DNA of 27,965 bases from the IMG/VR virus record IMGVR_UViG_3300028393_000280, positions 1-27,965 of that record; one strand, given 5' to 3'. This DNA is from a virus. The position numbers and the translations under genes are program-made. Positions 5,203 through 24,158 of this stretch are shown here, one piece after another. The first letter of the stretch is position 1; each line of letters starts with the position of its first letter. The notes under the pieces are model-generated. The model was not told where the DNA came from, did not search any database, and saw only the letters and a list, made by a program, of their open reading frames with translations.

Positions 5203-5203
5203 T

Positions 5204-5380
5204 TTATACCAACTCCTCGATAATGCCTAATAGTTCAGCTGCTATAAGACTCAATCCGGCGATGGGAACATTGCCATTGATTAGGGCAATACCGGCAAAT
5301 ATCCTCACAAAACTCTTTACGATACTGACATAAAAATGTCCGCGACTTGTGTCTTTGGGTTGTACTTCAAAGTTATCCAC
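5204..5380 (-). CDS. 58-aa membrane-associated microprotein with GTG start
   Basis: An open frame from GTG 5380 to TAA 5204-5206 that fills an otherwise empty 170-bp gap in a fully packed operon. The product begins MDNFEVQPKDTSRGHFYVSI and has a hydrophobic second half (FAGIALINGNVPIAGLSLIA) ending in acidic LLGIIEELV, so it may lie in or on the membrane. GTG overlaps the end of the 93-aa gene by 8 bp and has GGAG seven bases upstream; its 3' end carries the GAGGAG ribosome site of the next gene. No family is recognised. The exact fit and the lack of stop codons make it likely to be real. Confidence 0.72.
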   Translation of the reverse strand: MDNFEVQPKDTSRGHFYVSIVKSFVRIFAGIALINGNVPIAGLSLIAAELLGIIEELV

Positions 5381-5654: not shown

Positions 5655-5851
5655 GCTGTTAGTCCTTGTGCTAGGGTTTTCATATCTTCGTCGGTCATGA
5701 AAAACTGATATGTTGATGCAAAGTTAACCGCACCATCCTTCATACATTCTTGAATAAATTCAACGGCATTAAGATTATTTGGTGTAAGACATTTCCATGA
5801 CTTAACTCGGAGTCTAAATGCGGCATCCTCTTTGACTGTAAATTCTTTCAT
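5651..5851 (-). CDS. Small phage protein of unknown function (66 aa)
   Basis: A 66-aa protein, MKEFTVKEDAAFRLRVKSWK at the start and ending in an acidic-helical segment (FFMTDEDMKTLAQGL). It is coupled at both ends by ATGA overlaps, with the cytidylyltransferase upstream and the 93-aa gene downstream, and has an AGGA site. Nothing identifies its function. Confidence 0.8.
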   Translation of the reverse strand: MKEFTVKEDAAFRLRVKSWKCLTPNNLNAVEFIQECMKDGAVNFASTYQFFMTDEDMKTLAQGLTA

Positions 5852-6312
5852 TTCTTGTTCCTTTCTGCTTCTGCTACACGTTTGCGTAGACTGCTACTAC
5901 TAAAGGAATGATCACGCCCATTGTAGACGATTTCAATTCCACGCTTCTTACAGATTTCTTTACCTGTAAATTCTTTGTCCGCATACTCTATACCTAATAT
6001 TCTAACATCTACAGGCAAGATAAGCAAGAGGTCTTCGAGGTCTTTTTCAGTCTGATATACAACTACTTCGTCCACGTTACGATTGGTGCTGAGTTGTATC
6101 TGTCGTTCTACGATACTTTGTACTGGGGGATTTTTACTATCTGGGCGATCTATTGTAGGATCGGTTTGTAGTGCTGCGATCAAATAATCGCAATGGTTCT
6201 TAGCTTCGGCTAGCATGGCAATGTGTCCAGCGTGAAGCAGATCGAAGGTACTAAAAGTAATACCAATCTTCAGGCCATCTTGTTTTAGTTGTTTTACTTT
6301 GTTGAAAATCAT
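5848..6312 (-). CDS. Cytidylyltransferase-like nucleotidyltransferase
   Basis: A 154-aa Rossmann-type nucleotidyltransferase of the glycerol-3-phosphate/FAD synthetase class, which transfers a nucleotide from CTP or ATP onto a phosphorylated small molecule. The signature HAGH (residues 27-30) sits in TFSTFDLLHAGHIAML, and the second conserved element SSSSLRKR (138-145) corresponds to the family's STSxLxxR loop. Length equals single-domain bacterial enzymes. An alternative TTG start at 6318 adds two residues, but the ATG at 6312 makes a perfect ATGA overlap with the preceding gene and has GGGGA nine bases upstream, so I prefer it. The substrate cannot be told from sequence; a role in making a modified lipid, sugar or cofactor is possible. 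Confidence 0.88.
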   Translation of the reverse strand: MIFNKVKQLKQDGLKIGITFSTFDLLHAGHIAMLAEAKNHCDYLIAALQTDPTIDRPDSKNPPVQSIVERQIQLSTNRNVDEVVVYQTEKDLEDLLLILPVDVRILGIEYADKEFTGKEICKKRGIEIVYNGRDHSFSSSSLRKRVAEAERNKK

Positions 6313-6512
6313 TTCCAATCATCCCCGTGTCGAAATATCATATGCGGCCAAATATCGTTATCAAATATTTGAGCCATTTGATTCCATAATGCTTTGCGTT
6401 GAGAGCCTGTCATGCCTGCTACGAAATCGGCATCGTCGGGATGTTTGTCCAGTCCGTAGTCGTGCCTGTAAGTCATGCACATACCGGTAATAATTTGTTC
6501 GCGTGTCTTCAT
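6309..6512 (-). CDS. Small phage protein of unknown function (67 aa), first gene after a consensus promoter
   Basis: A 67-aa soluble protein rich in Asp, His, Met and Trp (MKTREQIITGMCMTYRHDYG). It is the first gene of the operon that ends with the clamp loader and overlaps the cytidylyltransferase by 4 bp. No Shine-Dalgarno precedes ATG 6512: the -10 box TATAAT of a perfect promoter ends only 5 bases before it, so the mRNA would begin at or next to the ATG (leaderless). Internal ATGs at residues 11 and 13 are alternatives, but they also lack a clear ribosome site. Confidence 0.78.
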   Translation of the reverse strand: MKTREQIITGMCMTYRHDYGLDKHPDDADFVAGMTGSQRKALWNQMAQIFDNDIWPHMIFRHGDDWK

Positions 6513-6517
6513 AATAT

Positions 6518-6546
6518 ATTATAGTCGTAAAAAAAGGGCCTGTCAA
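6518..6546 (-). promoter_or_regulatory. Perfect sigma-70 consensus promoter inside a terminator
   Basis: On the minus strand TTGACA (6546-6541) and TATAAT (6523-6518) are separated by exactly 17 bases, six of six matches in both. The TTGACA lies in the loop and arm of the terminator hairpin that ends the co-chaperonin operon. It drives the clamp-loader operon with a predicted start at about 6511-6512, which is the start codon itself. Confidence 0.88.
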
Positions 6547-6553
6547 GCCCTTT
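6533..6553 (-). terminator. Intrinsic terminator of the co-chaperonin operon
   Basis: On the minus strand AAAGGGC, a 7-base loop (TTGACAG) and GCCCTTT, then a run of T reading through 6529. This is a typical Rho-independent terminator 17 bases after the co-chaperonin stop. Its loop holds the -35 box of the next promoter. Confidence 0.85.
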
Positions 6554-6570: not shown

Positions 6571-6954
6571 TCACATGCCCGGTATATTGAAGTTGAAGTT
6601 AGATCCAGCACCAACTGCTTCTCGACGATCAACATCATAGGGTTTTTCATCAGCTGACATCATGATAGCATTATTATCCACCATACGGATAGTGATATCT
6701 TCTCCTGCATCGTTTCTGTATTCAATACCTCTGGTCCATCTACCGTGTTCAACGCAGACCCATTCGCCTACCTTGACATCTTGTTGATCTGGTCCAATTG
6801 CCCATACACGAGCCCAGCGTGGATGAATGCCAGCACTTTTACCATCATCAGACAGAAAGTATATACCGCTGGCTGTTTTCTCCATTCCAAATTCCATATC
6901 AGTGACAAGTATCTTGTCATATAGTGGAATTATTTTTCCTGTTACTGGTTTCAT
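6571..6954 (-). CDS. GroES/gp31-like co-chaperonin
   Basis: A 127-aa GroES-fold protein that would cap host GroEL, as T4 gp31 does, to fold phage proteins such as the major capsid protein. The start MKPVTGKIIPLYDKILVTDM matches the GroES first strand (PLxDxVLV). A mobile-loop-like segment, MEKTASGIYF, is at residues 24-33, and ARVWAIGP at 48-55 corresponds to the VVAVGxG strand. The C-terminal extension (about residues 100-127, Asn, Phe and Gly rich) is longer than in bacterial GroES, as usual in phages. ATG directly abuts the preceding stop codon, and its ribosome site GAGGAA lies in that gene. A terminator follows. Confidence 0.88.
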   Translation of the reverse strand: MKPVTGKIIPLYDKILVTDMEFGMEKTASGIYFLSDDGKSAGIHPRWARVWAIGPDQQDVKVGEWVCVEHGRWTRGIEYRNDAGEDITIRMVDNNAIMMSADEKPYDVDRREAVGAGSNFNFNIPGM

Positions 6955-7254: not shown

Positions 7255-7776
7255 CTATTTTAAAAATTCTCTTATATCTAATGAGAATTTTATTGAATCA
7301 ATTTTGTGTACACCTAACAAGTATAAGCAGTAACTGGCTACACTACTACCGCGCCCTACTCCCCATACAATGTTATTTTCTCTCATGGTGTCTACCAAGT
7401 ATTTAAGATAACACAGTAAGGTAATCATGTCATATTGAACAAATAGTTTCAACTCTTCTGATACTCTGTTAATTTCTATATCATTTTTACATAGAGAAAA
7501 CAAGTATTCCCCTATATCAAATGTCCGATAACTTTCGGGCATGAACCAGTTATCTTGTAAATTTCTATCAAACTGCTGTACCGATATGTCTAAATTTGGT
7601 AAATGCTCCAGTCTTGGTACACGATCGGCATTTAGATCACACGCACTATTATATTGATTAATTACAGTATCGGTATCAAGAAACACATTTTCCAATGTAT
7701 CGATCCGTTGCAAGTATAAGACTTCAAACGCCTCTTGCTCGGATATTTGTATTTGTCCGTATTGATTAGTTTTCAC
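7255..7776 (-). CDS. Stand-alone fragment of a C-family DNA polymerase (DnaE-like), catalytic aspartates absent
   Basis: With the GTG start at 7776, a 173-aa protein. The last ~50 residues (GVGRGSSVASYCLYLLGVHK, then IDSIKFSLDIREFLK) match the start of the DnaE palm, whose usual form is GPGRGSAAGSLVAYxLxIT.IDPLxYxLLFERFLN. The region before it (RVSEELKLFVQYDMITLLCY; QYNSACDLNADRVPRLEHLP) resembles the stretch between the PHP and palm domains. The ORF stops just before the PDxDxDF motif with the catalytic Asp residues, and there is no PHP, fingers or thumb, so it cannot polymerise. GTG overlaps the preceding stop (GTGAAAACTAA); a TTG at 7806 is an alternative. A DNA- or nucleotide-binding accessory role is a guess. 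Confidence 0.78.
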   Translation of the reverse strand: MKTNQYGQIQISEQEAFEVLYLQRIDTLENVFLDTDTVINQYNSACDLNADRVPRLEHLPNLDISVQQFDRNLQDNWFMPESYRTFDIGEYLFSLCKNDIEINRVSEELKLFVQYDMITLLCYLKYLVDTMRENNIVWGVGRGSSVASYCLYLLGVHKIDSIKFSLDIREFLK

Positions 7777-8320
7777 TCTTTCCGCCCTTGATGATTCGAG
7801 GTTCAAATCGTGGGCCGTCGTCGATATTTAAATCGCTCCATTCTGTGCTGTTATCAATACCTGTACTTACAGAATCCATATTCCACCAATAGTCACCTTT
7901 GAGATCTAATCCACATTCTTCTGGATCGTCGATACAATATTGTATATGATCTCCTATGGCGCTGTCAATGGTTATAAATTCAATGTCAAAGTATTTGGCA
8001 GATATTGCTCGTAATTTTTTACACAGTATTCCACCTACAAAGTAGTCATATGGTTCTGCTGGAAATATTACCAAATTTGTATCTAGTGAAACCAATGATT
8101 CTGTCAGGGGATGATCGGCATTGATGAATACACTATTATGGAGATAATTTTCTGTAAAATGTCTTATCTTTTTAAAACCAACTGGAACTACATTTTGAGG
8201 ATTTTCTATAGGTTCTATACTGATATTGATCATGTATGTGTTAGGTAACACAGCATTATCTGTAATCAGTGTACAGGCAAAAGAAATAGGCCAATTAAAT
8301 TGATGCATGTTAATCGACAT
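7766..8320 (-). CDS. Phage protein of unknown function (184 aa)
   Basis: A 184-aa acidic soluble protein. The middle (residues 65-135) is a mixed alpha/beta region (SLVSLDTNLVIFPAEPYDYF, KYFDIEFITIDSAIGDHIQY), and the end is rich in Asp, Trp and Ser and probably flexible. No family is recognised. The start ATG 8320 lies 11 bp inside the upstream gene; an ATG at 8308 just after that gene's stop would shorten it by four residues, and neither has a clear ribosome site, so coupling to the upstream gene is likely. Its 3' end overlaps the DnaE-like gene. Confidence 0.8.
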   Translation of the reverse strand: MSINMHQFNWPISFACTLITDNAVLPNTYMINISIEPIENPQNVVPVGFKKIRHFTENYLHNSVFINADHPLTESLVSLDTNLVIFPAEPYDYFVGGILCKKLRAISAKYFDIEFITIDSAIGDHIQYCIDDPEECGLDLKGDYWWNMDSVSTGIDNSTEWSDLNIDDGPRFEPRIIKGGKSEN

Positions 8321-10174: not shown

Positions 10175-10234
10175 TTATGACACTCTTTTTTCGAGTTCTT
10201 TGACTTTATTTTCTAATTCTTCGACTACTTCAAT
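10175..10234 (-). pseudogene. Out-of-frame coiled-coil continuation after the 1975-aa fibre
   Basis: Just past the fibre stop (TAG at 10225-10227), another reading frame of the same strand continues without a stop as [19 protein letters not shown] and ends with TAA at 10175. The heptad-like coiled coil is what the C-terminus of S74 chaperone domains normally looks like; the neighbouring fibre ends in similar [10 protein letters not shown]. This suggests a frameshift or a recombination scar that cut the fibre C-terminus by about 18 residues. Confidence 0.6.
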
Positions 10235-13200
10235 GCCAATAATTCTACATTGATCTGATCTATTTGTTTTTGTTGTTGTTCAATGATAGCATTTTGTTCT
10301 TTAATTGCTTCAATTAACAATGATGTTATTTTACCATAATCAACAGATAATATATCTTCTTTTGTTTCTGGATTTATGTTTGAAATTACAACTTCCGGTA
10401 ATACTTGTTGTATTTCCTGTGCGATAACTCCAATGCAGTCACGAAGATCATCATCTGGATCTGATATTCTATTGAAATAAACACCACGCAATTTTAAAGT
10501 TTTTTCCAACGCATTATCAATGGTAACAATATTTTTCTTAATCTTTCTATCGGAATATGCTGTAACATTGGCACCAAAGGTTGCATCGTTGTTTTCTAAA
10601 TTAATCTGCATCGGCCACTGGTTCCCGACTGTTGCCCATGATAAAGAGTTATTTCCACTACCTCTTAATATATAAAATGTATTGCCATTACAATGTATCA
10701 TCGCCGATCTATGATCTGTATCCTGTAGATATATAGTCGGTGAGCTATTATTAATTACCATATTACCGACCATTTCAATCGATCCATTGCTGAGTAATGA
10801 AATAGCTGTTGATCCACCAGATTTGGCCGAATAAACTCTAACACCGTTGCTAAATCGCATCGAAGCGTATCCATCATTTAAGTCAACAATATCTCCATCG
10901 TCGCCTAAAATGAGGCCGCCTCCTGTGGTGTTACCGCTTGTTACAGTTAATGAGTTTGTTATGTTCATATTACCACTGGAGTCAATATAGGCCCTATCTG
11001 TGCCGTTAGTCCTAAAATATATATTTTTAGCAGCGGAAGTACCAATACGCAAATTACCCGGGCCTAAAAGTTCAAGACCCACATCGGAATTTGATACAGT
11101 TCTTGGAGTAGTATTACCGTTGTTATCCCACCCACTGGCAGTAACACCATTAAGTCTAAAATTCCAAACACTATCGTCTGTGTGCCATATACTGGCGTTA
11201 CCAACTCCGCCGTCGGCTCCTTTGGCATCATTTGGCAAGGTAAATGACAGCATTGTTTGCCGGTAGTAATCACCATAGGCACTTAAGGCTAAAACAGGCC
11301 ATGGCCAATCTGCATTTTCTATTGGTGCTGCTCTTGTTCCACTATAATTTTTAAACCAAGCAACATTCTGGTCAGTAGAGTTTTGAACTACTAATCTAGC
11401 ATTGTTTTCAACGGCTGTGGCACCAATTGCAGCTCTACCAGTTGTTAATAAGTTACCATCTTTTACCCCTACATATGTAGTACCGGCGCTGAATCCACCA
11501 ATTTTGAAAACATTATCGGTATCAAGACCCATGTTGATCCCATAATTGCCCGGACGATGGAATGAAATTATCGCAGCATTATTTTGATCTCCCCGTACAC
11601 TCATTGAACCTGTGTCATTGGATGCAGAATAATCTCCGCCGGTATTAGTTTTACCAACAATCAATCCGTTAACTGATAGTTGTGTTCCATCCCAGGTTAA
11701 CTTAGATGATCCGGTTAATGTTTGAGCCGCGCTATAGTATGCTACATTATTAGCAGTTCCGCTAGTTAATGTACCGGGTCCTGCTGGACCTGTTGCACCT
11801 GTATTACCCTGGACCCCTTGATTACCTTGATTGCCTTGTGGTCCTTGTGGTCCTTGTGGTCCTTGAGGCCCAGTAGCACCTGTATTGCCCTGCGGGCCTG
11901 CTGGGCCTGCCGGTCCCTGATTACCTTGGACCCCTTGAGGTCCTTGGGGACCGGCAGATCCACTAGTACCGGCATTACCAGCTGCTCCGGCAGGTCCTGT
12001 ATTACCAGCGGGTCCAGTAGGTCCGGTAGATCCAAGTGCTCCAGTGATCGAAAAGCCCCAGATGGCAATGGTTCCACTGCCCACAACATAATCGATATTG
12101 ACTGTCAATAGATTAGTTGCGTAGGCAGTTATGGCACCTTCCATGTAGTTTGCGGGACTTGAGGTACTTACAATTCGAACACGATCGCCGATTATATATG
12201 CATTTGTTCCTGCTGCTTGGTTTACAGTAAATGATTTAGATCCTGTTCCCATCGCCACGCTCGTGGTAGAGGTCAATCCACTGTAGCCTAATCCTGTTGC
12301 TCCACCTGAACCTCCTGTGCCCGAAGGTCCCTGCGGTCCACTTACGCCCTGCGGTCCTTGTGGGCCAGTTGATCCAGCTGCGCCTGCGACACCTGATACC
12401 CCTTGCGGTCCTTGTGGCCCAGTTGACCCAACAGTGCCCGCGCCACCCGCTGGCCCGGTAGGACCCTGTGGTCCAGTTGCTCCTGCGATTCCTTGAGAGC
12501 CTGTTAGTCCTTGTAGTCCAGTTGCTCCTACAGTTCCTGCTCCGCCGACCGGTCCTTGTGGTCCACTTACACCTTGCGGTCCTTGTGGTCCAGCAGCGCC
12601 TGCTGTACCAGCAGTTCCTTGAGAGCCTTGAGGTCCTTGTGGCCCACTTACACCTTGTGGTCCTTGTGGTCCTTGTGCTCCTGCCACCGCGCCTGGATTA
12701 ACCCAAGTAGGAGTAGCATCACCATTACTTCGTAAAATCTGCCCACTTGTACCAACATTAGCTGCGCCGCCAAACGCAATACCGCCAGCAGAAGTGATAC
12801 GAATGCGTTCAACATTTCCATTGGTATAAAATGCCATTGAATTTGTACCTGTTGCATAACCGGAATTAAAATATGCAATTTGGCCTAATACAGTAGTAGT
12901 TGGATCAGTGAATATAATTTGACTAAAATTCGCAGCAGGACTCTTAAATGTAGCCGCAGCATAATCAGTTGCTTCTACAAGCAGTTTTGTATAACCATTA
13001 ATAGATCCCGAGCCAATAGATGATCCAACACTGAGTTTGGCACTTGGTGAAGTAATACCAATACCGACATTTCCTCCAGTTAATACCATTTGTGTGCTGG
13101 TTATAACTGCATTATTGTAAGCAGCAAAATTTAAACTTGCTACAGTTGAATTGGTAGCAGTAGTCCATATACGAGCAGCATTAGATTGATTAAATCCATT

Positions 13201-16152
13201 AGCATCATTTATTCCAAATTCTAATACTGGTGTGGCAGTTCCCGATGATCTATCCTGGATTGATATTTTTGCTAGGCCGGCTGTTGTAGAAACAACAGCT
13301 AATCTTCCAAATGTATCTGGTGTCGTAGTTCCGATACCCACACTTCCTGTTGCTGGATTGATTACAAAACTACTTGTGGTATAAACACTCATGCCAGCAG
13401 CCGTGTCATTATTAGCACTTACAAATGTTGGGTAATAACTGGCATTGGTTGTTTGAGACACAGTCTGTACTTGACCTGCGCTACTGGCAATTATTGATCC
13501 GGTTGATATCCATGTCGGCGCAGCCCCTGCGCCATTACTTTGTAAAAGCTGTCCACTGGTGCCGTAGTTGCTAACTCCACCAAAAGAAACAGCACCGGTA
13601 CTGGTTACTAAAAATCTTATACTTCCATTAAAGTTAAGATAAATTGGAAGGCCGGCAGTCTTCTGATTGATTTGGAATCCACCAGTTCCGTCGAACCCTA
13701 CAAAAGCACCATTTGCCTGACTAGGGGTAGTAATAGTAATACCGGAGTTGGCATGTCCTTCTATTCGTACCTGACTTGCCGCACCACCTGTTTCATTGAT
13801 ATGTAATTTAGAAATAGGGACTGTAGTACCTAATCCTACAAATCCTGTACTGGCATTGAATCCAAATTGACTGTTAGAGTTTGTGACGATATAAGGTGGC
13901 TGGTTTGAGCCCGCCGAGGCTACTCCTACTACATATTCGAATGCTGATGTATTAGAAGAAGCATTAATAGATGTAGTTGATCCTGCGCCCGCTGGTCCTG
14001 TTGGTCCAGTAGGTCCTGTTGACCCAATATTGCCAATTGGTCCTGTGGGTCCTTGAGGTCCTGTTGCTCCAACTGGACCAATTGGCCCACTTGGTCCTTG
14101 TGGTCCACTCACAGTACTGGCTTGACCATTTGTTCCGCTTGGTCCAATTGGGCCCGTTGCGCCCTGTGGACCCGATACGCCTTGTGGTCCTTGTGGTCCT
14201 TGTGGTCCTTGTGGACCCATTGGTCCTCTTAAACCCTGTGATCCAATTGGTCCGCTTGGTCCGGAAATCGTACTAGCAGCTCCTTGTGGCCCTGATACGC
14301 CTTGGAATCCTATAGGTCCCTGCGGTCCCATTGGTCCTTGAACTCCTTGTGGTCCTTGAACTCCTTGTGGTCCTTGTACACCACTTACACCTTGTGGCCC
14401 TGACACACCTTGTGGTCCGCTTACGCCTTGTGGTCCTTGTATACCAACTGGTCCTCTTATAACTCCAACATCGGTAAATCCGTCATATGGATTTGATGTA
14501 GGACCGGTATATACCCAAAGATGTCCAGTATCATCTGCTAGGAATCCATCGCCGGCTACTGGAATAGGATCTACCGTTATAAAATTAGATGTTGTAGCAG
14601 ACGCAATACTTCCGATGATTCTTACAGATGTTCCGTTTTGCCCTGCGGCACCCTGAGGGCCCTGCGGTCCCATTGGTCCCTGCGGTCCCGTTACACCTTG
14701 TGGCCCTAATACGCCTTGTGGTCCTTGTACACCACTTACACCTTGTGGTCCTTGTGGTCCCTGCAGTCCCTGCGGTCCTTGTGGTCCTGACACACCTTGC
14801 GGTCCCTGTGGTCCTTGTGGTCCCATTGGTCCTTGAACTCCTTGTGGTCCTTGAACTCCTTGTGGTCCTTGTGGCCCAGCAAACATACCAACATCAATGA
14901 ATCCATAGTTGGGATTATTTATTGGACCTTGATATATCCAAAGATGACCAGTAGAAGAAACAATAACACCATCGCCGGCAACCGGAGATGGATCAATGCT
15001 TTGCATATCCGATGAACTGCTAGTGCCGGTAGTTCCTATAATAGTTATAGATGTACCAGATACGCCCTGCGGTCCGGTAACACCCTGCGGTCCTTGTGGC
15101 CCTTGTGCGCCATCCGGTCCGCTTGGCCCTACTGGTCCTTGTGGTCCTTGTGATCCTTTCGGTCCCTGTGGTCCTGTTGATCCTATTGGTCCTTGAGGTC
15201 CTTGTATACCACGTGGTCCAGTTGGTCCGCTAGCACCAGACGGTCCTTGTGGCCCTACTGCTCCGATTAATTCAGAACCATTTTGATAAATTTTTCCATC
15301 AAACCATATATCACCCCCTACACCAACTCCGCCCTTAACTACCAATGCTCCTGTCTGTGCAGAAACAGCATTTTGGCTGCTAGTAATTAGCACACTGGTA
15401 GCAGTGACTACAGGAACAGTAAGTACCCCTTGACTACCATTAAAAGTTATATTTCCTGGAGAATAAGCATCTAGATATTGTCCTACAGAAGAAACCATAA
15501 TAGGAGAATAATCTGTTATGTCTGATTGAGTTAATGTGTTTACATATATTTTGGTTGCTTTATTAGGAGCGGTTATAATACTTGAAGTACTGACCCACGA
15601 AGCAGTAGTTCCATTAGATTGTAATAGATATCCATTCGGTCCTATAGGTATAAATGATGTGGTACTACCGGTGCTTTGTATTAGTATACTACCTGTAAAT
15701 CCACCGGAAATATTTGTAGCGGTAAAAAAATTAGCACCATCTATTCCCCTCGGTCCGGTTGGTCCACTAACTCCTTGAGGTCCGCTCGGCCCTTGTACAC
15801 CAGCAGGACCACTAACTCCTTGTGGACCTCTAAGCCCTTGGCTTCCGGACGGTCCTGTTGGTCCGGTTGATCCGGTAACACCTTGCGGTCCTTGATTTCC
15901 CGTTGGTCCAGTTGGACCTACTGGTCCTTGCGGTCCTACCGGTCCTATTGGTCCTTGTGGTCCACTTACTCCGGAAGGCCCTGTTTCGCCTACTGGTCCT
16001 TGCGGTCCTTGGCTACCAGCACCGATTAAATCTTTTGTTTGTTGAACGGTAATATATTGTGCTACCGTAGAATCTTGAACCACAAACTGAGTTTCAGCTG
16101 TGGTTGGATTTATTAATTGCGGTAACGAGGTAAGGTCTAAACGTGCTGTCAT
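10225..16152 (-). CDS. Giant collagen-like tail fibre with S74 chaperone domain (1975 aa)
   Basis: The largest gene of the window. Residues 1-50 are the adaptor shared with three neighbours ([20 protein letters not shown]). Then come several collagen-like Gly-X-Y blocks (mostly GPQ, GPS, GPT and GPV), broken by two copies of a ~60-aa knob domain (core PVAGDG...TGHLW, at about 14877-15057 and 14452-14633) and by beta-rich trimeric-fibre segments with SVGIGTT-type repeats. The end is an S74 endosialidase-type chaperone starting near S1867: SDRKIK has the Ser and the Lys five residues later of the self-cleaving dyad, so about 109 residues are likely removed after trimerisation. ATG 16152 has no clear ribosome site and follows the 653-aa gene by 8 bp. 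Role: host binding. Confidence 0.92.
14452..14633 (-). other. Knob domain copy interrupting the collagen shaft (second in the 1975-aa fibre)
   Basis: A ~60-residue non-collagen insert with the core [18 protein letters not shown] and end [10 protein letters not shown]. It is closely similar, also at DNA level, to the copy at 23226-23402: the stretch AAAATTAGATGTTGTAGCAG is identical in both. Confidence 0.8.
14877..15057 (-). other. Knob domain copy interrupting the collagen shaft (first in the 1975-aa fibre)
   Basis: The same ~60-residue insert in a more diverged form: core [18 protein letters not shown] and end [10 protein letters not shown]. Collagen triplets resume directly on both sides. 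Confidence 0.78.
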
Positions 16153-16160
16153 ATATTTTA

Positions 16161-18122
16161 CTATTTAATAGAAAGATTTTTTTTGAGTTCTTTAACCTCG
16201 TTGGAAAGTTCTTTAATGGCTTCTACCAGTAATGGTACGACTCTTTCATATTTAATTGCTAGATATCCGTCGGTTCTTGTAGTTGATATTTCGGGCAGTA
16301 CTTCGACAATCTGCTGAGCAATCAATCCAGCTTCACGTTGTGTGGAATCTTTATCCACGGCTAATTCATTCCAATTATAAGTAACACCATCCAGACCATG
16401 AACCTTATCGAGCGCATTGGTAATTTTTTCAATATTATTTTTTAATCTAAGATCGGAGGATGAAAATGCTGTAACGTCACCGCCTGTCTCTATTGCTCCG
16501 TCAACACGTAGACCACCTGTTGCTAATTTATAGTTGCCTCCTGAGAATTGAAGATAATAACTAGCATCAGTACTAAAAAATATACTACCACTGATCAATT
16601 TGATATTATTTTCAAAAGTAGCCTCATTATACACATGTAGGTATCCGTCGGAATTTCCAGTTCCTACTTGTAATGTTGTTGATGTTCTAGTAAGGCCTGC
16701 ATCTCCGGTAATGCTTGATCCATTTACACTATATAAAATTTGATTAGCCCCAACAGAAATGTTTGGTCCTTGTGGTCCGCTTACACCACTAGGACCTTGT
16801 GGTCCGCTTGGTCCAGTTGATCCTTGCAGTCCTATTCCAATATTTCCTTGTGGTCCTGTCGCACCTTGTGGTCCCTGAGGGCCTTGTGGTCCCTGAGGGC
16901 CTTGTGGTCCCTGAGGGCCTTGTGGTCCACTTAATCCTTGACTACCTCTTGGTCCCTGTGGTCCAGTAGCACCACTGGGTCCTTGTACACCTTGTGGTCC
17001 AGTTGCGCCAACTGATCCGCTTGGTCCTATTTCTCCCTGCGGCCCGCTGGGTCCTCCACTGGGTCCTTGCGGTCCAACTGGACCTGTTGGTCCTGTTGCT
17101 CCAGGAATCGTACTTGCTGCTCCTGTTGCTCCTCTTGATCCTACTGGCCCACTTACACCTTGCGGTCCCTGTGGTCCCATTGGTCCGCTAGGTCCTCTTA
17201 CAAGTCCAGCATCAATAAATCCTGCCACAGGCCCTGTACCAGTATAAACCCATAAATGACTAGTATCGATTGCTATAAATCCATCTCCAGCAACTGGGGT
17301 AGGATCTGCTGCTTGAAGATTAGATATTGTAGCAGATGCCACAGTTCCTTTGATCTGTATTCCTGTACCGGCAGGTCCTTGCGGTCCACTAATTCCTTGT
17401 ATTCCGCTAGGTCCTTGTGGTCCCATTGGACCACTTGGCCCCGATGGTCCACTGACTCCTATTGGACCCTGTGGGCCACTTGGCCCTCCACTGGGTCCTT
17501 GCGGTCCTGATAATCCCTGTGGTCCTTGTAAACCTCGAACTCCTTGTGGCCCACTTACGCCCTGTGGTCCTTGTGGTCCAGTTGCTCCTTGTGGTCCTTG
17601 AGGTCCGCTCAACCCTTGTGGTCCTTGAGGTCCGCTTGTTGAACTTCCTGGTCCACTTGGCCCTGTAGGTCCCATTGGTCCTGTGGCACCTAGCGGTCCT
17701 TGTGGTCCTTGTACACCGCTTGGGCCCTGCGGTCCCCTTGGTCCAGTTGCTCCGCTTGGTCCCGTAGGTCCAGTTGCTCCTGTAGAACCGAGAATACCAG
17801 TAGCACCCCTAGGTCCGGTTGCGCCTGTGGAACCTATATTGCCTTGCGGTCCTTGAACTCCGCTAGGTCCTTGCGGCCCGGAAAATCCCTGCGGTCCTAT
17901 AAAACCCTGTGGTCCTTGTGGTCCACTCAATCCGTCGGGTCCTTGAGGGCCAGTTGCTCCGATTGGTCCACTTGGACCAGTGGGTCCTGCTCCTATTAAA
18001 ACCCTGGCCTGTGCTACAGTTAGTGTTTGTGAAACACTAGAATCCTGTACAACAATACGAGTTTCCGACTCTGTAGGATTGACTAAAGGGGGTAATGATG
18101 ATAAATCAAGGCGTGATGTCAT
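16161..18122 (-). CDS. Collagen-like tail fibre with S74 chaperone domain (653 aa)
   Basis: A shorter paralogue. Residues 1-50 carry the shared adaptor ([20 protein letters not shown]), then about 370 residues of Gly-X-Y triplets with one knob insert (core [18 protein letters not shown]), a short beta-rich trimeric segment, and the S74 chaperone from about S556. SDLRLK holds the Ser/Lys dyad, and the end [13 protein letters not shown] is a coiled coil. Near the C-terminal end of the shaft a DNA unit of 18 bp is repeated (16864-16928). The start ATG 18122 has a late-type box (18144-18151) but no clear Shine-Dalgarno. The length difference from the 1975-aa fibre comes from the shaft and beta segments, as expected for modular fibres. 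Confidence 0.92.
16864..16928 (-). repeat. 18-bp tandem repeat in the collagen shaft
   Basis: Three full and one partial identical copies of CCTTGTGGTCCCTGAGGG (plus strand), coding for GPQGPQ units. An in-frame 18-bp period means that slippage changes shaft length without breaking the gene. Confidence 0.88.
17197..17372 (-). other. Knob domain copy in the 653-aa fibre
   Basis: A ~59-residue insert with the core [18 protein letters not shown] and end [10 protein letters not shown], between two collagen blocks. It is the same module as in the 1975-aa and 1126-aa fibres and has a slightly shorter loop before GFIDAG. Confidence 0.78.
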
Positions 18123-18143
18123 TTTAATTAAGGCTTATTGGAA

Positions 18144-18151
18144 TATTTATG
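18144..18151 (-). promoter_or_regulatory. Late-promoter-like box CATAAATA
   Basis: CATAAATA on the minus strand, 21 bases before ATG 18122. It lies between the arms of a 6-bp inverted repeat (TAAGGC at 18129-18134 and GCCTTA at 18151-18156). It would start a transcript for the 653-aa and 1975-aa fibres. Confidence 0.5.
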
Positions 18152-18196
18152 CCTTAGATATGTTATGAACATCCTGTACGAAATATGCGTATATTA

Positions 18197-18469
18197 TTAC
18201 TCAATTGTAAAAATATTAACAAAAACTGAACCATCTTCTAATGCTTCAATTTCGTGCCATTCATTGGCTGCAAGATCAATTGGTTGTGTGTACTTATTGA
18301 TAATCTTTTCACGACCTTCTTTGCGTATAATACAACTCCCGGCATTGCATATTGTAGCATGAGCAAATGTATGCTCGTGTTTGGCCAATCCTTCACCTCG
18401 ATTGGCATGGTAAACATTGAAAGATGCTTGACCATAATTGAAAGTGTGTGACGGGCCGATGGTAATCAT
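18197..18469 (-). CDS. Cupin-fold protein (90 aa)
   Basis: A 90-aa single-domain cupin. Motif 1 is GEGLAKHEHTFAHATICNAG (residues 25-44), with possible metal ligands H31, H33 and H37, and motif 2 is PIDLAANEWHEIEALEDGSV (63-82) with H72. The size is that of the minimal beta-barrel. Small cupins bind metals and act on sugars, amino acids or other small molecules, or only bind them; the substrate here is unknown. The start shares a base with the stop of the preceding 68-aa gene (TAATG). It sits between two collagen-like fibre genes, so a link to fibre modification or assembly is possible but unproven. Confidence 0.82.
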   Translation of the reverse strand: MITIGPSHTFNYGQASFNVYHANRGEGLAKHEHTFAHATICNAGSCIIRKEGREKIINKYTQPIDLAANEWHEIEALEDGSVFVNIFTIE

Positions 18470-18675
18470 TAGAAACTCTGTAAACCGTTGTTTATTGAAA
18501 TGTCCGTACGTTTTGTAATTTCGCCATCTTTAAAATACCAATAGTCTGCAACTACATCATCTGCACATTCTGTCCAGTAAGTTGGATCACCTACAGGAAA
18601 CGTAAATTTTTCAACCTGTGCTACACGATACCCATCTAACACAGGCTCATTAGGACAAATTAATGCATATTTCAT
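18469..18675 (-). CDS. Small phage protein of unknown function (68 aa)
   Basis: A 68-aa acidic protein (MKYALICPNEPVLDGYRVAQ, ending in ITKRTDISINNGLQSF) with many aromatic residues in the middle (TYWTECADDVVADYWYFKDG). AGGA lies 11 bases before ATG 18675, just after the stop of the 694-aa fibre. It is coupled to the cupin by TAATG. A fibre-linked small protein, for example an assembly factor or a tip cap, is conceivable from position, but no family is recognised. Confidence 0.78.
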   Translation of the reverse strand: MKYALICPNEPVLDGYRVAQVEKFTFPVGDPTYWTECADDVVADYWYFKDGEITKRTDISINNGLQSF

Positions 18676-18686
18676 TATTCCAATCC

Positions 18687-20771
18687 TTAATACTCAAATA
18701 TAACCACACCAGGTGCTCCTGCGCCACCTGGTTCATCACCAGCACCACAGTCGCTGCCCCGACCTGAACTTCCTCCGCCACCACCACCGTAACCGCCGCC
18801 TGCGGCACCAGCACTCGTACCGCCAGCACCACCACCGCCTAATATAGAACTGCCTCCGGTGCCGCCAAAAGAACCTCCAACCCCAGTGCCGCCGCTCCCA
18901 CCTTTAATATTTAAATCTCCTCCAGAACCATTTCCTCCGTTACCGGTAGCACTAACAGTCGAAATTGATTGTGAACCCGACGCAACGCTAGATGCGCCAG
19001 CCGCAGCGCCCACTGTTACAGATAATGTATTACCGGGTGTTAATCCCGATAACCATTTAATTGCTGCACCACCTCCACCACCGCCAGCACCAGCTGTATA
19101 TATTGTGTTGCCATTTTGGCCGCCTACTGACCTGGATGTACCTACACCGCCACCACCTCCGCCGCCTACTACTGTTACTTTCATTTTGGTAATACCTGTT
19201 GGTATTGTGAATGTACCTGAACTGGTAACAACAGTTACAGTTACACCTCCGGCAGTTCCTGCCGGTCCTTGATTACCTTGATTACCTTGATTACCCTGAT
19301 TACCTTGAGCTCCTGCTGGACCGGCAGGTCCAGTATTACCCTGATTACCTTGAGCTCCTGCTGGACCGGCAGGTCCAGTATTACCCTGAGTACCCTGTGA
19401 TCCGGCTGGTCCGGCTGGTCCTATATTACCTTGCGTACCTTGAGCTCCAGCCGGTCCAGTTGGTCCTTGTGGTCCCGGATTACCTTGCGTACCCTGATTA
19501 CCTTGCGTACCCTGGTTACCTTGCGCACCGGCCGGGCCTGTTGGTCCTTGCGGTCCGCTGGGTCCTACATTACCCTGATTACCTGTTGGGCCTTGTGGTC
19601 CTGTTGGTCCTGTTGCTCCTACTGAACCGGCATTTCCTTGAGGACCAGCAGGTCCTGTTGGTCCTGTTGCTCCGGTAGCGCCTACTCCACCCGATGTTCC
19701 AGCTGGTCCTGCTGGGCCGGATACGGTACTAGCAGACCCGGCAGGTCCTGCCGGTCCTTGAGGTCCTTGAGGTCCGCCGGCTGGACCAATTGGTCCCGTT
19801 GGCCCTGTTGCTCCAGTAGCGCCTATACCTGTTGCTCCAGTAGGTCCGCCGGCTGGTCCTGTTGCTCCTGTATTACCTTGCGGTCCAGTCGGTCCTTGCG
19901 GTCCAGTAGGTCCGCCGGCTGGGCCTTGCGGTCCGGATGATCCTGCTGGGCCAGTTGACCCTGCTGGTCCTTGTGGTCCCTGCGGTCCACTTATTACACT
20001 TCCTGCGCCTGCTGGTCCAGTTGACCCTGCTGGTCCTTGTGGTCCCTGCGGTCCACTTATTACACTTCCTGCGCCTGCTGGTCCAGTTGGTCCTTGTGGA
20101 CCTGTAGATCCGGGTATTCCGGTTGCGCCCGACGGCCCACTTGGCCCACCACTAGGTCCTTGAGGTCCGCTTACGGTACTGGCCGCGCCAATTGGTCCCT
20201 GCGGTCCTTGTGGTCCTTGAGGACCTGTCGCGCCAACTGGTCCTGTGAATCCTATAGGACCCTGATTACCTTGTGCTCCAGATGGCCCACTTAATCCTGT
20301 AGATCCAGTTGCTCCACCAGCAGATCCAGTAGGTCCACTAGGGCCAGTAGATCCTCGAACTCCTTGCGGTCCTTGAACGCCTTGTGGTCCTAGCAGTCCA
20401 GTTGCTCCAATTGGTCCTTGTGGACCTGTAGATCCGGTTATTCCTCTTGGCCCAGTTGCTCCAGCAGGTCCTGTTGCTCCAGTTGCTCCAGTTGCTCCTT
20501 GTGGGCCCACCGGCCCTGATGGACCACTGGGTCCTTGTACACCTTGTGGACCAGTTGGTCCTAAATCACCCTTTGGCCCTTGTGGACCAGTTGCTCCGGT
20601 AAATCCTGCAGGACCGCTAGGACCAGTTGGACCAGCAGCTAATAATGTTCTAGCCTGATCTACTGTGATATATTGAACAATGCTAGAATCCTGAACAACC
20701 AGTCGAGTCTCCGACTGGGAAGGATTTAACAAATTTGTTAGAGCATCAATTGATGGGGGTCGTATTGCCAT
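18687..20771 (-). CDS. Collagen-like tail fibre with glycine-rich tip (694 aa)
   Basis: The only one of the four paralogues without an S74 domain. Residues 1-50 hold the shared adaptor ([20 protein letters not shown]). Residues ~50-505 are nearly unbroken Gly-X-Y triplets with several perfect DNA repeats and no knob insert. From about residue 508 a beta strand [20 protein letters not shown] opens a glycine-rich domain ([20 protein letters not shown] and further runs) that ends in [10 protein letters not shown]. The same type of Gly-rich domain forms the tip protein at 8561-9346. The domain probably forms the receptor-binding tip in place of an S74-matured end. It is followed by the 68-aa and cupin genes. 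Confidence 0.9.
19291..19380 (-). repeat. 45-bp tandem repeat in the 694-aa fibre
   Basis: Two identical 45-bp units (19291-19335, 19336-19380), coding for the 15-residue unit [15 protein letters not shown]. Shorter GNQ units continue next to it. Confidence 0.9.
19945..20082 (-). repeat. 66-bp tandem repeat in the 694-aa fibre
   Basis: About two copies of a 66-bp unit coding for 22 residues with the core [19 protein letters not shown]. The TGCGGTCCACTTATTACAC part recurs at 19981 and 20047, exactly 66 bp apart. Confidence 0.88.
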
Positions 20772-20777
20772 TTTATT

Positions 20778-23700
20778 TTATAATCCTGCTGTTGATTCAA
20801 GTACTGCAACACGGGCAGTCAAGGTGCTAATAAGTACTTGCTGCTCTTTAATTGCAGCAACCAGTAATGGAATAGTATCTGAATATGCAATACCAAGATA
20901 TTCTATATTTTCTCTAACACTGATACTAACCGCTTCTGGTAATACTTTCTGAACATCCTGAGCAATAAGGAATGGTCTTGATTTTTTATTTTCATCTGAA
21001 ATAAAGTTGCCGGTAACTGTACGTAGACTTAATACTTTTGTTACCGCATCAGTGATTGGTATGAGATTTTCTTTTAGACGTTCATCGGAAACAGAACTCC
21101 AACTGTTAACTGAATTTGGTAGATAAACACCGTATGATGAAAAAGAGTTACCAGAGCCGAAATAAAAATTATCATCGGAAGCATTAAATCCAATATAACC
21201 TTCTACCTGCGTACTTTTAGTCAGATATAAATTTAATTGCGTATTTGCAGGACTATATAGATTTAGATTTCCTTTGGTTTGAGCAACAGCGCCAATTGTG
21301 ACTACACCGTTGCCCGCAATACGTAGTTTTTCTGTAGGATTATTTGACGCTTGATTACTTGTTCTAAAAATAATATCTCCACTGATAGCCGCGCCGCCCC
21401 CGGTTCCGCCATTTGAGACCTGTACAGTTATCTGCGCTAGTCTATTATATGTTTCCGATGTTGTTCCATGGAAATCTATTCCAGTGTATCGGTCGGAACT
21501 TTCGTTGTATAATTTAAGAACACCGGTGTTAGAACCGGCAGTGGTAGTATATACGTCTAACTTGGATAACGGCGAATTAGTACCAATACCTACATTACCA
21601 AGACTGTCAATACGCATACGTTCTATTGGTTGGGAAGTATTGTCATCTAAATACTTTGTGTAGAACAGAATCTGACCACGCTGACCATTTGGAACGCCCG
21701 ATGCCCCTAAAAATATTCTTGCTCCATTTATAGGATTATTTTGATAAGAACCACCAATAGAAACACCATTGCCCACCCCAGATGGTCCATCAGTTCTACC
21801 TTGAATAGTTGCCCAATTACGAACTGAACCAACCACTAATGTTGTTCCTTGACTGTCGGTATATACGTCTGGTGTAGCAGTTCCAATACCAACAGTACCG
21901 GTGGAGTCAATACGCATACGTTCTGTGTTAAGGGTACCAAATATTAATGGGTATACTGATTCAGTTGCTATAGCGATGTGTGAGCTACCGTTGCTTATAT
22001 ATGTGGCATTTGGAGCTCGATTGTAGAAATCGGCCACTTGGCCACTACCGAATAATGTAATTCTACTAATAGAGTTTGCGGCGTTGTTGCCAAATATCAG
22101 CTGCGATGAGGCCAGAGGATTCTTATTTTGTATAGATACAGCACCAGTGGATGGATTAATATAGAAGCTACTGGTGGTATAAAAACTCATAGCAGTTGCA
22201 TTGGCATTGTTGTTACTTACAAATGTTGGATAATAATTACTATTGGCTGTTTGTGCTACAGTGTTTAACTGCAAAGTACTTGCCGCCCCGGCAGGCCCTT
22301 GAGGTCCTTGTGACCCTGATACACCTTGCGGTCCTTGCGGTCCGATAGCACCTGCAACACCTGCTGGACCTTGATTGCCAATAGGACCTTGTGGTCCTTG
22401 TGGTCCTTGATTGCCTTGTGCTCCTTGCGGCCCCTGTGGTCCTTGTGGACCGGCTACTCCTTGTGGACCGGCTGCTCCAGCAGGTCCTTGATTACCTTGA
22501 GCACCAGCTGGTCCTGCTGCTCCGGTAGTTCCTGCTCCGCCATTTGCGCCAGCAGGTCCCGATGGACCTTGAGGACCAGTTGCTCCAATAGTTCCTGATC
22601 CACCTGCCGGTCCAGTTGGTCCTTGGGGCCCTGTTAATCCGGCATTTCCAGTGCCGCCACTTGTGCCTGATGGTCCCTGAGGTCCACTCAATCCTCTAGG
22701 TCCTTGCAGTCCGGTTGCTCCTATAGTACCTGCTCCTCCGGTTGGTCCAGTTGGTCCTTGTGGACCAGCTACTCCTTGTGGACCAGCTGCGCCAGCAGTT
22801 CCTTGGGATCCTGAATTTCCTACAGGCCCTTGCGGTCCGATAGCACCTGCAACACCTGCTGGACCTTGATTGCCAATAGGACCTTGTAGTCCTTGTGGCC
22901 CTTGTATACCACCTAGTCCTTGCGGCCCCGATGGCCCTTGAGGACCAGTTGCTCCAATAGTTCCTGATCCCCCGCCAGGGCCCGATGGACCTTGAGGACC
23001 AGTTGCTCCAATAGTTCCTGATCCCCCGCCAGGGCCCGATGGACCTTGAGGACCAGTTGCTCCAATAGTTCCTGATCCACCTGCCGGTCCAGTTGGTCCT
23101 TGGGGCCCTGTTAATCCGGCATTTCCAGTGCCGCCACTTGTGCCTGATGGTCCCTGAGGTCCACTCAATCCTCTAGGTCCTTGCAGTCCGGTTGCTCCTA
23201 TAGTACCTTGAGGTCCACTAGGGCCCCTTATCAATCCAACATCAGCAAATCCATCATAAGGATCGGATGTGGGCCCAACATATACCCAAAGGTGGCCGGT
23301 ATCCTCGGCGATATATCCATCTCCTGCTACAGGACTAGGATCTATAGTGACAAAATTAGATGTTGTAGCAGAAACAATACTTCCATTGATTTTTACTGAT
23401 GTACCAGCTGGTCCTTGTGGTCCAGTGGCACCTTGTGGTCCTTGCGGTCCTTGTACTCCGCTTGGGCCTTGTGGTCCGCTTATGGTACTGGCAGGTCCTT
23501 GCGGGCCAATCGGTCCTTGCGGTCCACTTGGGCCACCGCTAGGGCCTTGTGGACCAATGTCTCCTTGTGGTCCCTGCGGCCCAATTGGTCCTTGGGGACC
23601 TTGTATACCTGTGGCACCATCCTGCCCTATATTTCCATTATTGCCTGACAATCCAATTGGTCCTTGTGGCCCGCTTGGTCCGCTTGGGCCGCCGCTTGGT

Positions 23701-24158
23701 CCTATTGGCCCTTGCGGGCCACTTATGGTACTAACAGCACCGCTAGGTCCCTGAGGTCCTTGAGGTCCTTTTGGCCCACTTACGCCTACGACTCCTTGTG
23801 GGCCTTGTGGTCCAGGTACTGAACTAGCATTGCCCTGAGCACCACTTACTCCTCTAGGTCCCTGAGGTCCGCTCACTCCAGACGGTCCTACTGGGCCACT
23901 AACACCCAATGGACCCGAAGGTCCGCTAACTCCACTAGGTCCCATTGGCCCGCTTGGTCCTACTAGTCCTAATGGCCCTGTAGGTCCCGAAACACCAGCC
24001 GGTCCAGATGGACCAGCACTGCCTAATCCTAGCAGTGTTCGAGCAACTCCTACTGTTAGATATTGGTTTACGCCAGAATCTTGTACAACAATACGAGTTT
24101 CTGTTTCGGTGGGATTCGTTAATTGTGGTAGGAAGGTTACGAGCGGTCTTGTTGCCAT
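20778..24158 (-). CDS. Collagen-like tail fibre with S74 chaperone domain (1126 aa)
   Basis: First of the four fibre genes in transcription order. Adaptor [20 protein letters not shown] lies within residues 1-45, then a collagen block, one knob domain (23226-23402), a second long collagen block with large perfect repeats, a beta-rich region (about residues 640-1020) with SVGIGT-like segments ([24 protein letters not shown]) typical of trimeric fibres, and the S74 chaperone from S1024 (SDERLK keeps the Ser/Lys dyad; about 103 residues released). It starts at ATG 24158 with a late-type AATAAATA 22 bases upstream, and its stop is 6 bp from the next fibre start. Probable host-binding fibre. Confidence 0.92.
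22333..22392 (-). repeat. 60-bp direct repeat, copy A
   Basis: A 60-bp block coding for [16 protein letters not shown]-type triplets, identical to 22828-22887 (495 bp apart) in the same gene. Confidence 0.85.
22558..22731 (-). repeat. 174-bp perfect direct repeat, copy A
   Basis: Identical by eye over 174 bp to 23035-23208, 477 bp away in the same gene. It codes for 58 residues including [18 protein letters not shown]. 174 and 477 are both multiples of three, so recombination between copies would keep the frame and remove or add 159 residues. Confidence 0.9.
22828..22887 (-). repeat. 60-bp direct repeat, copy B
   Basis: Second copy of the block at 22333-22392. The 495-bp spacing is divisible by three. 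Confidence 0.85.
22927..23078 (-). repeat. 54-bp tandem repeat in the 1126-aa fibre
   Basis: Units start at 22927, 22981 and 23035. The second is a full 54 bp, the first differs by a base or so, and the third runs into the 174-bp repeat. The unit codes for the 18-residue [18 protein letters not shown]. Confidence 0.88.
23035..23208 (-). repeat. 174-bp perfect direct repeat, copy B
   Basis: Second copy of 22558-22731; the match ends where copy B meets the knob-proximal collagen triplets. Confidence 0.9.
23226..23402 (-). other. Knob domain copy in the 1126-aa fibre
   Basis: A ~60-residue non-collagen insert with the core [18 protein letters not shown] and end [10 protein letters not shown]. 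It is the closest relative of the copy at 14452-14633 in the 1975-aa fibre. Confidence 0.8.

Follow-up and report, generated by a model that had tools for sequence, protein, structure and literature searches.

Genomic context of the element

The window (the whole stretch of DNA analysed) is a virus record of 27,965 bases, and its contig is probably a fragment. The element described here is located on the minus strand, between a co-chaperonin gene and an ORF of 67 aa. The features of this region, following the minus strand, are:

6571..6954, minus strand: co-chaperonin gene (GroES/gp31-like; PF00166 (Cpn10), E 1.3e-5; PHROG 931/3188), last gene of the upstream unit
6533..6553, minus strand: predicted terminator hairpin with a 9-bp stem, formed by arm 1 AAAGGGCTT (6553-6545), loop GAC (6544-6542) and arm 2 AGGCCCTTT (6541-6533)
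6541..6546, minus strand: -35 hexamer TTGACA
6529..6535, minus strand: T7 tract, whose initial T bases form pairs with AAA in arm 1; RNA 3' ends are expected here from the sequence
6518..6523, minus strand: -10 hexamer TATAAT
6510..6512, minus strand: predicted transcription start and ATG of the 67-aa ORF, leaderless or with a leader of at most 1-2 nt; the -10 hexamer ends at 6518
6309..6512, minus strand: 67-aa ORF of unassigned function, first gene of the downstream unit
5848..6312, minus strand: cytidylyltransferase-like gene (PF01467, E 1.9e-9; PHROG 7878), with its start set by comparison with contig L003
4094..5014, minus strand: clamp loader ATPase (PHROG 168, E 1.1e-76; PF00004/PF13177), distal gene of the same-strand block

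The stop codon of the co-chaperonin gene is separated from the hairpin by 17 nt. Among named phages, the co-chaperonin has its best relatives in jumbo phages, for example Munch and Atu_ph07 (42-43% identity) and PA5oct (~41%), and the clamp loader DNA was ~71% identical to that of PA5oct-group phages. The 67-aa ORF has a relative of 94% identity, and gave no match in Pfam or PHROG. Its stop codon is overlapped by the ATG of the cytidylyltransferase-like gene, which is followed by three small ORFs and then by the clamp loader. The downstream block had been named a clamp-loader operon in the preliminary description; this suits its end, the clamp loader (PHROG 168), but not its beginning, which is the 67-aa ORF and the nucleotidyltransferase, the clamp loader being only the sixth ORF. 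The clamp loader lies ~1.5 kb downstream of the element, beyond a 170-bp gap (5203-5372) that may hold a further promoter, in which case its transcription might be independent of the nested one.

Elsewhere in the window, a 183-aa ORF (7255-7806, minus strand) shows a partial match to PF07733 (DNA polymerase III alpha) and ends inside the domain, as in a split or fragmentary polymerase gene. Four consecutive large proteins of 1975, 653, 694 and 1126 aa (10225-24158, minus strand) are rich in collagen-like Gly-X-Y repeats, which were read from the translation of the first protein and deduced from DNA repeats for the other three. Rfam and tRNA scans of the window gave no matches.

Structure of the element

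The element is AAAGGGCTTGACAGGCCCTTTTTTTACGACTATAAT, the minus strand from 6553 to 6518, and both sequence and coordinates agree with those given in the preliminary description. Folding of the RNA paired AAAGGGCUU with AGGCCCUUU around the loop GAC. The minimum free energy of the hairpin was -12.2 kcal/mol for 43 nt (6560-6518), with a z score of -4.62 that no shuffled sequence equalled, and -10.8 for the 30-nt core. A GC-rich stem, a U tract directly after it and compensatory changes in the stem, as expected of an intrinsic terminator, were all found in sequence tests. The built-in terminator scan missed this hairpin, and its counts in general were at chance level; the A-T pairs counted into the stem are probably the reason for the miss.

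The -35 hexamer does occupy loop and arm, as had been proposed: its TT ends arm 1 at the top, GAC forms the loop and arm 2 begins with the A. The spacer of 17 nt (GGCCCTTTTTTTACGAC) consists of arm 2 together with the T tract, and TATAAT follows. The promoter thus matches the sigma-70 consensus at 12 of 12 positions, in accordance with the earlier claim, and the sharing of one 36-bp element by a terminator and a promoter after a co-chaperonin gene (PF00166) is borne out by the fold, the T7 tract and the two complete boxes. The strength of promoter and terminator is judged from consensus.

On this basis, the co-chaperonin message very probably stops at the element and the following message begins there. 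This reading draws on its anatomy, covariation, conservation, spacing and enrichment and on a natural split in one relative, all visible in sequence; from them we infer terminator and promoter activity, a leaderless start, early timing and mutual occlusion of polymerases.

Frequency of the nested arrangement

Two promoters matching the consensus at 12 of 12 positions were found in the window, against 0.04 expected from Markov sequences, and in none of 300 such sequences were two reached. The second one (27749-27721, minus strand) has a TTGACA that shares bases with the stop codon (TGA) of the preceding gene, and its TATAAT is followed 6 nt later by an ATG; it has no hairpin and, judging from this spacing, is a probable further leaderless start.

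These counts bear on the reading in which the hairpin serves termination alone and the promoter is a by-product of chance or decay. Phage DNA of this kind is AT-rich and holds many weak promoter-like matches (43 in 14 kb, 40.7 expected), but perfect matches are far rarer than that. In addition, the -35 box, the spacing of 17 nt and the -10 box are kept in relatives despite changes in the arms, and the 67-aa gene has a promoter of its own where it has been relocated (contigs L029/L033, see below). We give this explanation a very small chance of being right.

To quantify nesting, a promoter was taken as nested when its -35 box lay inside a hairpin of at least 6 bp with at least 4 GC pairs, and the expectation was obtained by shuffling the 16 upstream bases. 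The related contigs (1.06 Mb) contained 191 unique promoters with at least 11 of 12 matches, of which 13 were nested, against 0.3 expected. All 13 had a spacer of 17 nt, and 11 were followed by 6-7 T in 8 bases, a run that was not a search criterion. Additionally, IMG/VR was sampled with the pattern TTGACA-N8-TTTT-N5-TATAAT, and 31 of 129 unique sites were nested among the matches listed (1.5 expected); about seven of these precede MDKEKL-type genes, and since some sites are mutually homologous the 31 do not amount to 31 independent origins. The genes that follow viral nested sites belong to several families, among them those for high-light-inducible proteins, a nucleotidase, an RtcB-type ligase, an exonuclease and one apparent tRNA. 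With the same pattern, bacterial genomes yielded one nested site in 80 among the matches listed (0.45 expected), mostly from Clostridia, so that the contrast is only indicative. As judged from these counts, the nested arrangement is not a product of chance. At most one element per contig was found with a strict DNA pattern, and it is therefore not a high-copy repeat.

Conservation and covariation in related phages

IMG/VR was the source of relatives for both the co-chaperonin and the 67-aa protein. The element was found directly 3' of the co-chaperonin gene in L002, L003, L004, L006, L013, L016, L023/L024 and L026, where the gene after it is one of several unrelated kinds; 5' of the 67-aa gene in L035/L036, L040 and L171; and between two other genes in L190. 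Ungapped identity to the window element ranged from 71 to 100%, with flanking DNA often down to 20-30%. In L003 and L190 the element was 88-91% identical and both flanks were at background (20-28%), the co-chaperonin protein still being encoded upstream in L003, in a comparison of phages that are not near-identical. On the other hand, the element is often missing at the same boundary in relatives: in several the genes adjoin each other directly, and L015, L018 and L028 carry there a promoter without hairpin.

No single common structure fitted all eleven syntenic elements, because their loop registers differ by one base, and covariation was therefore counted on the eight elements in the same register. 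Among these, 96.9% of the cells were paired and changes on both sides were found in 4 of 8 pairs; none of 500 shuffles matched the observed pairing or covariation score. The loop core TTGAC was kept despite the changes in the stem (one element has ATGAC), and relatives with altered arms retained both the spacing of 17 nt and TATAAT. This pattern is consistent with an RNA hairpin in which a separate constraint, the -35 box, keeps the loop from changing, and the terminator and promoter halves both appear to be under selection.

The same data allow two other readings of the inverted repeat to be rejected on arm covariation and box spacing. A protein operator covering the -35 box, in place of a terminator, is very unlikely: operators commonly take the form of a palindrome that covers a -35 box, but a repressor that reads sequence would not tolerate compensating changes in the arms and variable arm lengths, nor does an operator agree with the T tract on the same strand in 11 of the 13 nested promoters, which emerged unasked. 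Extremely unlikely is a hairpin promoter of the N4 type, used by a virion RNA polymerase; it shares with the window element a short hairpin beside the start site, but complete sigma-70 boxes at a fixed distance, together with arms that covary and a T tract, agree with the host polymerase.

Separation of the two halves in a relative

In L029/L033, which represent one phage, a 193-aa gene on the opposite strand separates the co-chaperonin gene from a 67-aa gene that is 94% identical to that of the window. The hairpin after the co-chaperonin gene keeps its stem and a T7ACG tail, its loop is TTATTA and no promoter is present. The 67-aa gene is preceded by a leaderless-type promoter (TTGACT-N17-TATAAT) without hairpin (z +0.7). 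From this arrangement, each half seems able to work as a unit, nesting being the compact form. The inserted gene (L029:3346-3996), methyltransferase-like by eye, lies exactly between the terminator-only and the promoter-only half.

Predicted leaderless start

The ATG of the 67-aa ORF (6512) is located 5 nt past the -10 hexamer. Dozens of relatives (>60) with unrelated upstream DNA share the ATG at which the N-terminus MKTREQI begins, and the start codon is therefore sound. In the strong promoters of the clade (L117-L169), the distance from the -10 hexamer to the ATG is two-peaked, at 5-6 nt and at ~20-33 nt, and controls with shuffled or reversed boxes gave no comparable peak at 5-6 nt. An ATG 5-7 nt past the -10 was found in 9 of the 13 nested promoters versus 12 of the 178 others (Fisher 2e-7, a value inflated by related contigs). 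A Shine-Dalgarno sequence was present in 58 of 77 leadered genes and in none of 21 leaderless ones, a zero that is partly forced, as the -10 occupies that position. L016 and L026 have a Shine-Dalgarno leader in place of the leaderless start. The mRNA of the 67-aa gene is thus probably leaderless, as far as promoter spacing indicates, and the two-peaked distances point to a likely class of leaderless genes in this phage group.

Leaderless mRNAs are known, for instance that of lambda cI, whose transcript begins at the AUG and has no Shine-Dalgarno sequence. The window transcript is likewise predicted to begin at the AUG without one; it differs in that its leaderless start is deduced from promoter spacing, and in that the phage group also has many leadered genes.

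Comparison with known systems

PeSL (promoter-early stem-loop) cassettes were reportedly described by Arbiol in 2010 and Comeau in 2014 in the T4-type phages RB49, phi1, PST and nt-1. They are said to combine a terminator stem-loop with a strong sigma-70-like promoter at the boundaries of gene blocks, kept while the flanks change, and reportedly occur as many similar, recombining copies per genome that act early in infection. Composite promoter-terminators of this type in T4-type phages are cited in PMC4503421.

The window element resembles these cassettes in its strong sigma-70-like promoter (12/12, 17-nt spacer) and in the predicted terminator stem-loop joined to it. Their layout is different: measurements in RB49 and T4 put the loop of the hairpin, in most cases, 29-31 or 42-46 bp before the -35 box, in tandem, whereas the offset in the window is ~0, the arms form part of the spacer and the start is predicted to be leaderless. 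Copy number differs as well, with one copy in the window and 0-2 per related contig (these contigs being partial); G006 carries two copies, with different arms. The element would work in a PeSL-like way, but layout and, across the contigs searched, copy number set it apart. We therefore class it among composite promoter-terminators, as a nested variant, rather than as a true PeSL, the definition of PeSL being taken at second hand. No description of the nested layout was found in the literature searched, which did not include the original PeSL reports, so that an earlier description is possible.

Among the cyanophages (Kyanoviridae), Syn1, S-CREM1 and Sf-CH11 show the nested layout in host-like promoters. 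The Syn1 example, GAAGAGGGTCTTGACGCCCCTCTTTTTTTCATATATAAT, is located 5' of hli03. L410:801-870 corresponds to Syn1 169039-169108 and places a nested terminator-promoter directly before this high-light-inducible gene in a cultured cyanophage. The ATG is 6 nt past the -10 in S-CREM1, close to the window arrangement, whereas Syn1 and Sf-CH11 have longer distances, and the downstream genes in these cyanophages are not those of the window. No convincing nested element was found in Syn9 and T4, and S-PM2 gave one weak candidate. The jumbo phage PA5oct (Arenbergviridae) has one nested 12/12 element at 186478, ~2 kb before its co-chaperonin gene; it differs in its spacer of 18, and between the co-chaperonin gene and the next one, 13 bp apart, no nested element is present. 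The likely leaderless start, the recurrence across phages and the T4-type precedent had been overlooked in the preliminary description.

Proposed mechanism

In the proposed mechanism, the RNA hairpin and its U tract would terminate the co-chaperonin message at ~6535-6529, and the same DNA would be recognised as a consensus promoter by host RNA polymerase carrying its principal sigma factor. Transcription would start at the ATG or within 1-2 nt of it, and the resulting mRNA, without a leader, would cover the 67-aa gene and those that follow it, among them the nucleotidyltransferase and perhaps also the clamp loader. Nesting would spare ~30 bp relative to the tandem hairpin-then-promoter of RB49 and T4, and gene blocks could be exchanged on either side, each retaining its own terminator and promoter.

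Because the termination zone (6535-6529) sits between the -35 and -10 boxes, terminating and initiating polymerases would exclude each other, with no simultaneous occupancy of the element by both, as a single polymerase footprint spans the two sites. This geometry is what speaks for a regulatory switch, in which a terminating polymerase blocks initiation, a promoter-bound polymerase forms a roadblock that makes termination stronger, and the two operons are inversely expressed. We hold such a switch to be possible but unlikely: some occlusion is expected for any promoter just past a terminator, the halves persist apart in L029/L033, so that their coupling is not essential, and many relatives have the boundary without the element. 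Any regulatory effect of mutual occlusion is conjectural, and the simpler reading would be a compact boundary at which one unit is insulated from the next and transcription begins anew.

The position of the promoter also raises the question of a restart coupled to termination, in which the terminated host polymerase would stay on the DNA, slide a few bases and re-initiate at the nested promoter. Nesting gives the shortest possible distance from terminator to promoter, and bacterial RNA polymerase that has terminated intrinsically can remain on the DNA and begin again at the closest promoter (PMC11347151); the range of this recycling was estimated at ~1000 bp (PMC11347151), however, and nesting would be unnecessary for it. 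Such a restart seems to us decidedly improbable. We are similarly doubtful of a full coupling device, going beyond a saving of space, in which the terminating polymerase would be handed to the promoter of the same hairpin to make a leaderless message, tying the replication genes to the end of co-chaperonin transcription, by a design that phages have evolved repeatedly and bacteria almost entirely lack.

Under the preferred reading, a compact boundary between transcription units, the parts of the element are ordinary, and the whole is a recurrent, little-described arrangement. Phages including Kyanoviridae, PA5oct and uncultured jumbo phages would fuse a terminator and a promoter in one hairpin of ~36 bp, in which compensation in the stem would preserve termination and the loop would preserve the -35 box. 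The arrangement provides a signature by which operon boundaries can be searched for in the genomes of uncultured phages, and adds a likely class of leaderless genes to this phage group. It may also serve as a small natural element for the study of RNA polymerase collisions, recycling and re-initiation, for which the hli03 site of Syn1 would be tractable for experiment.
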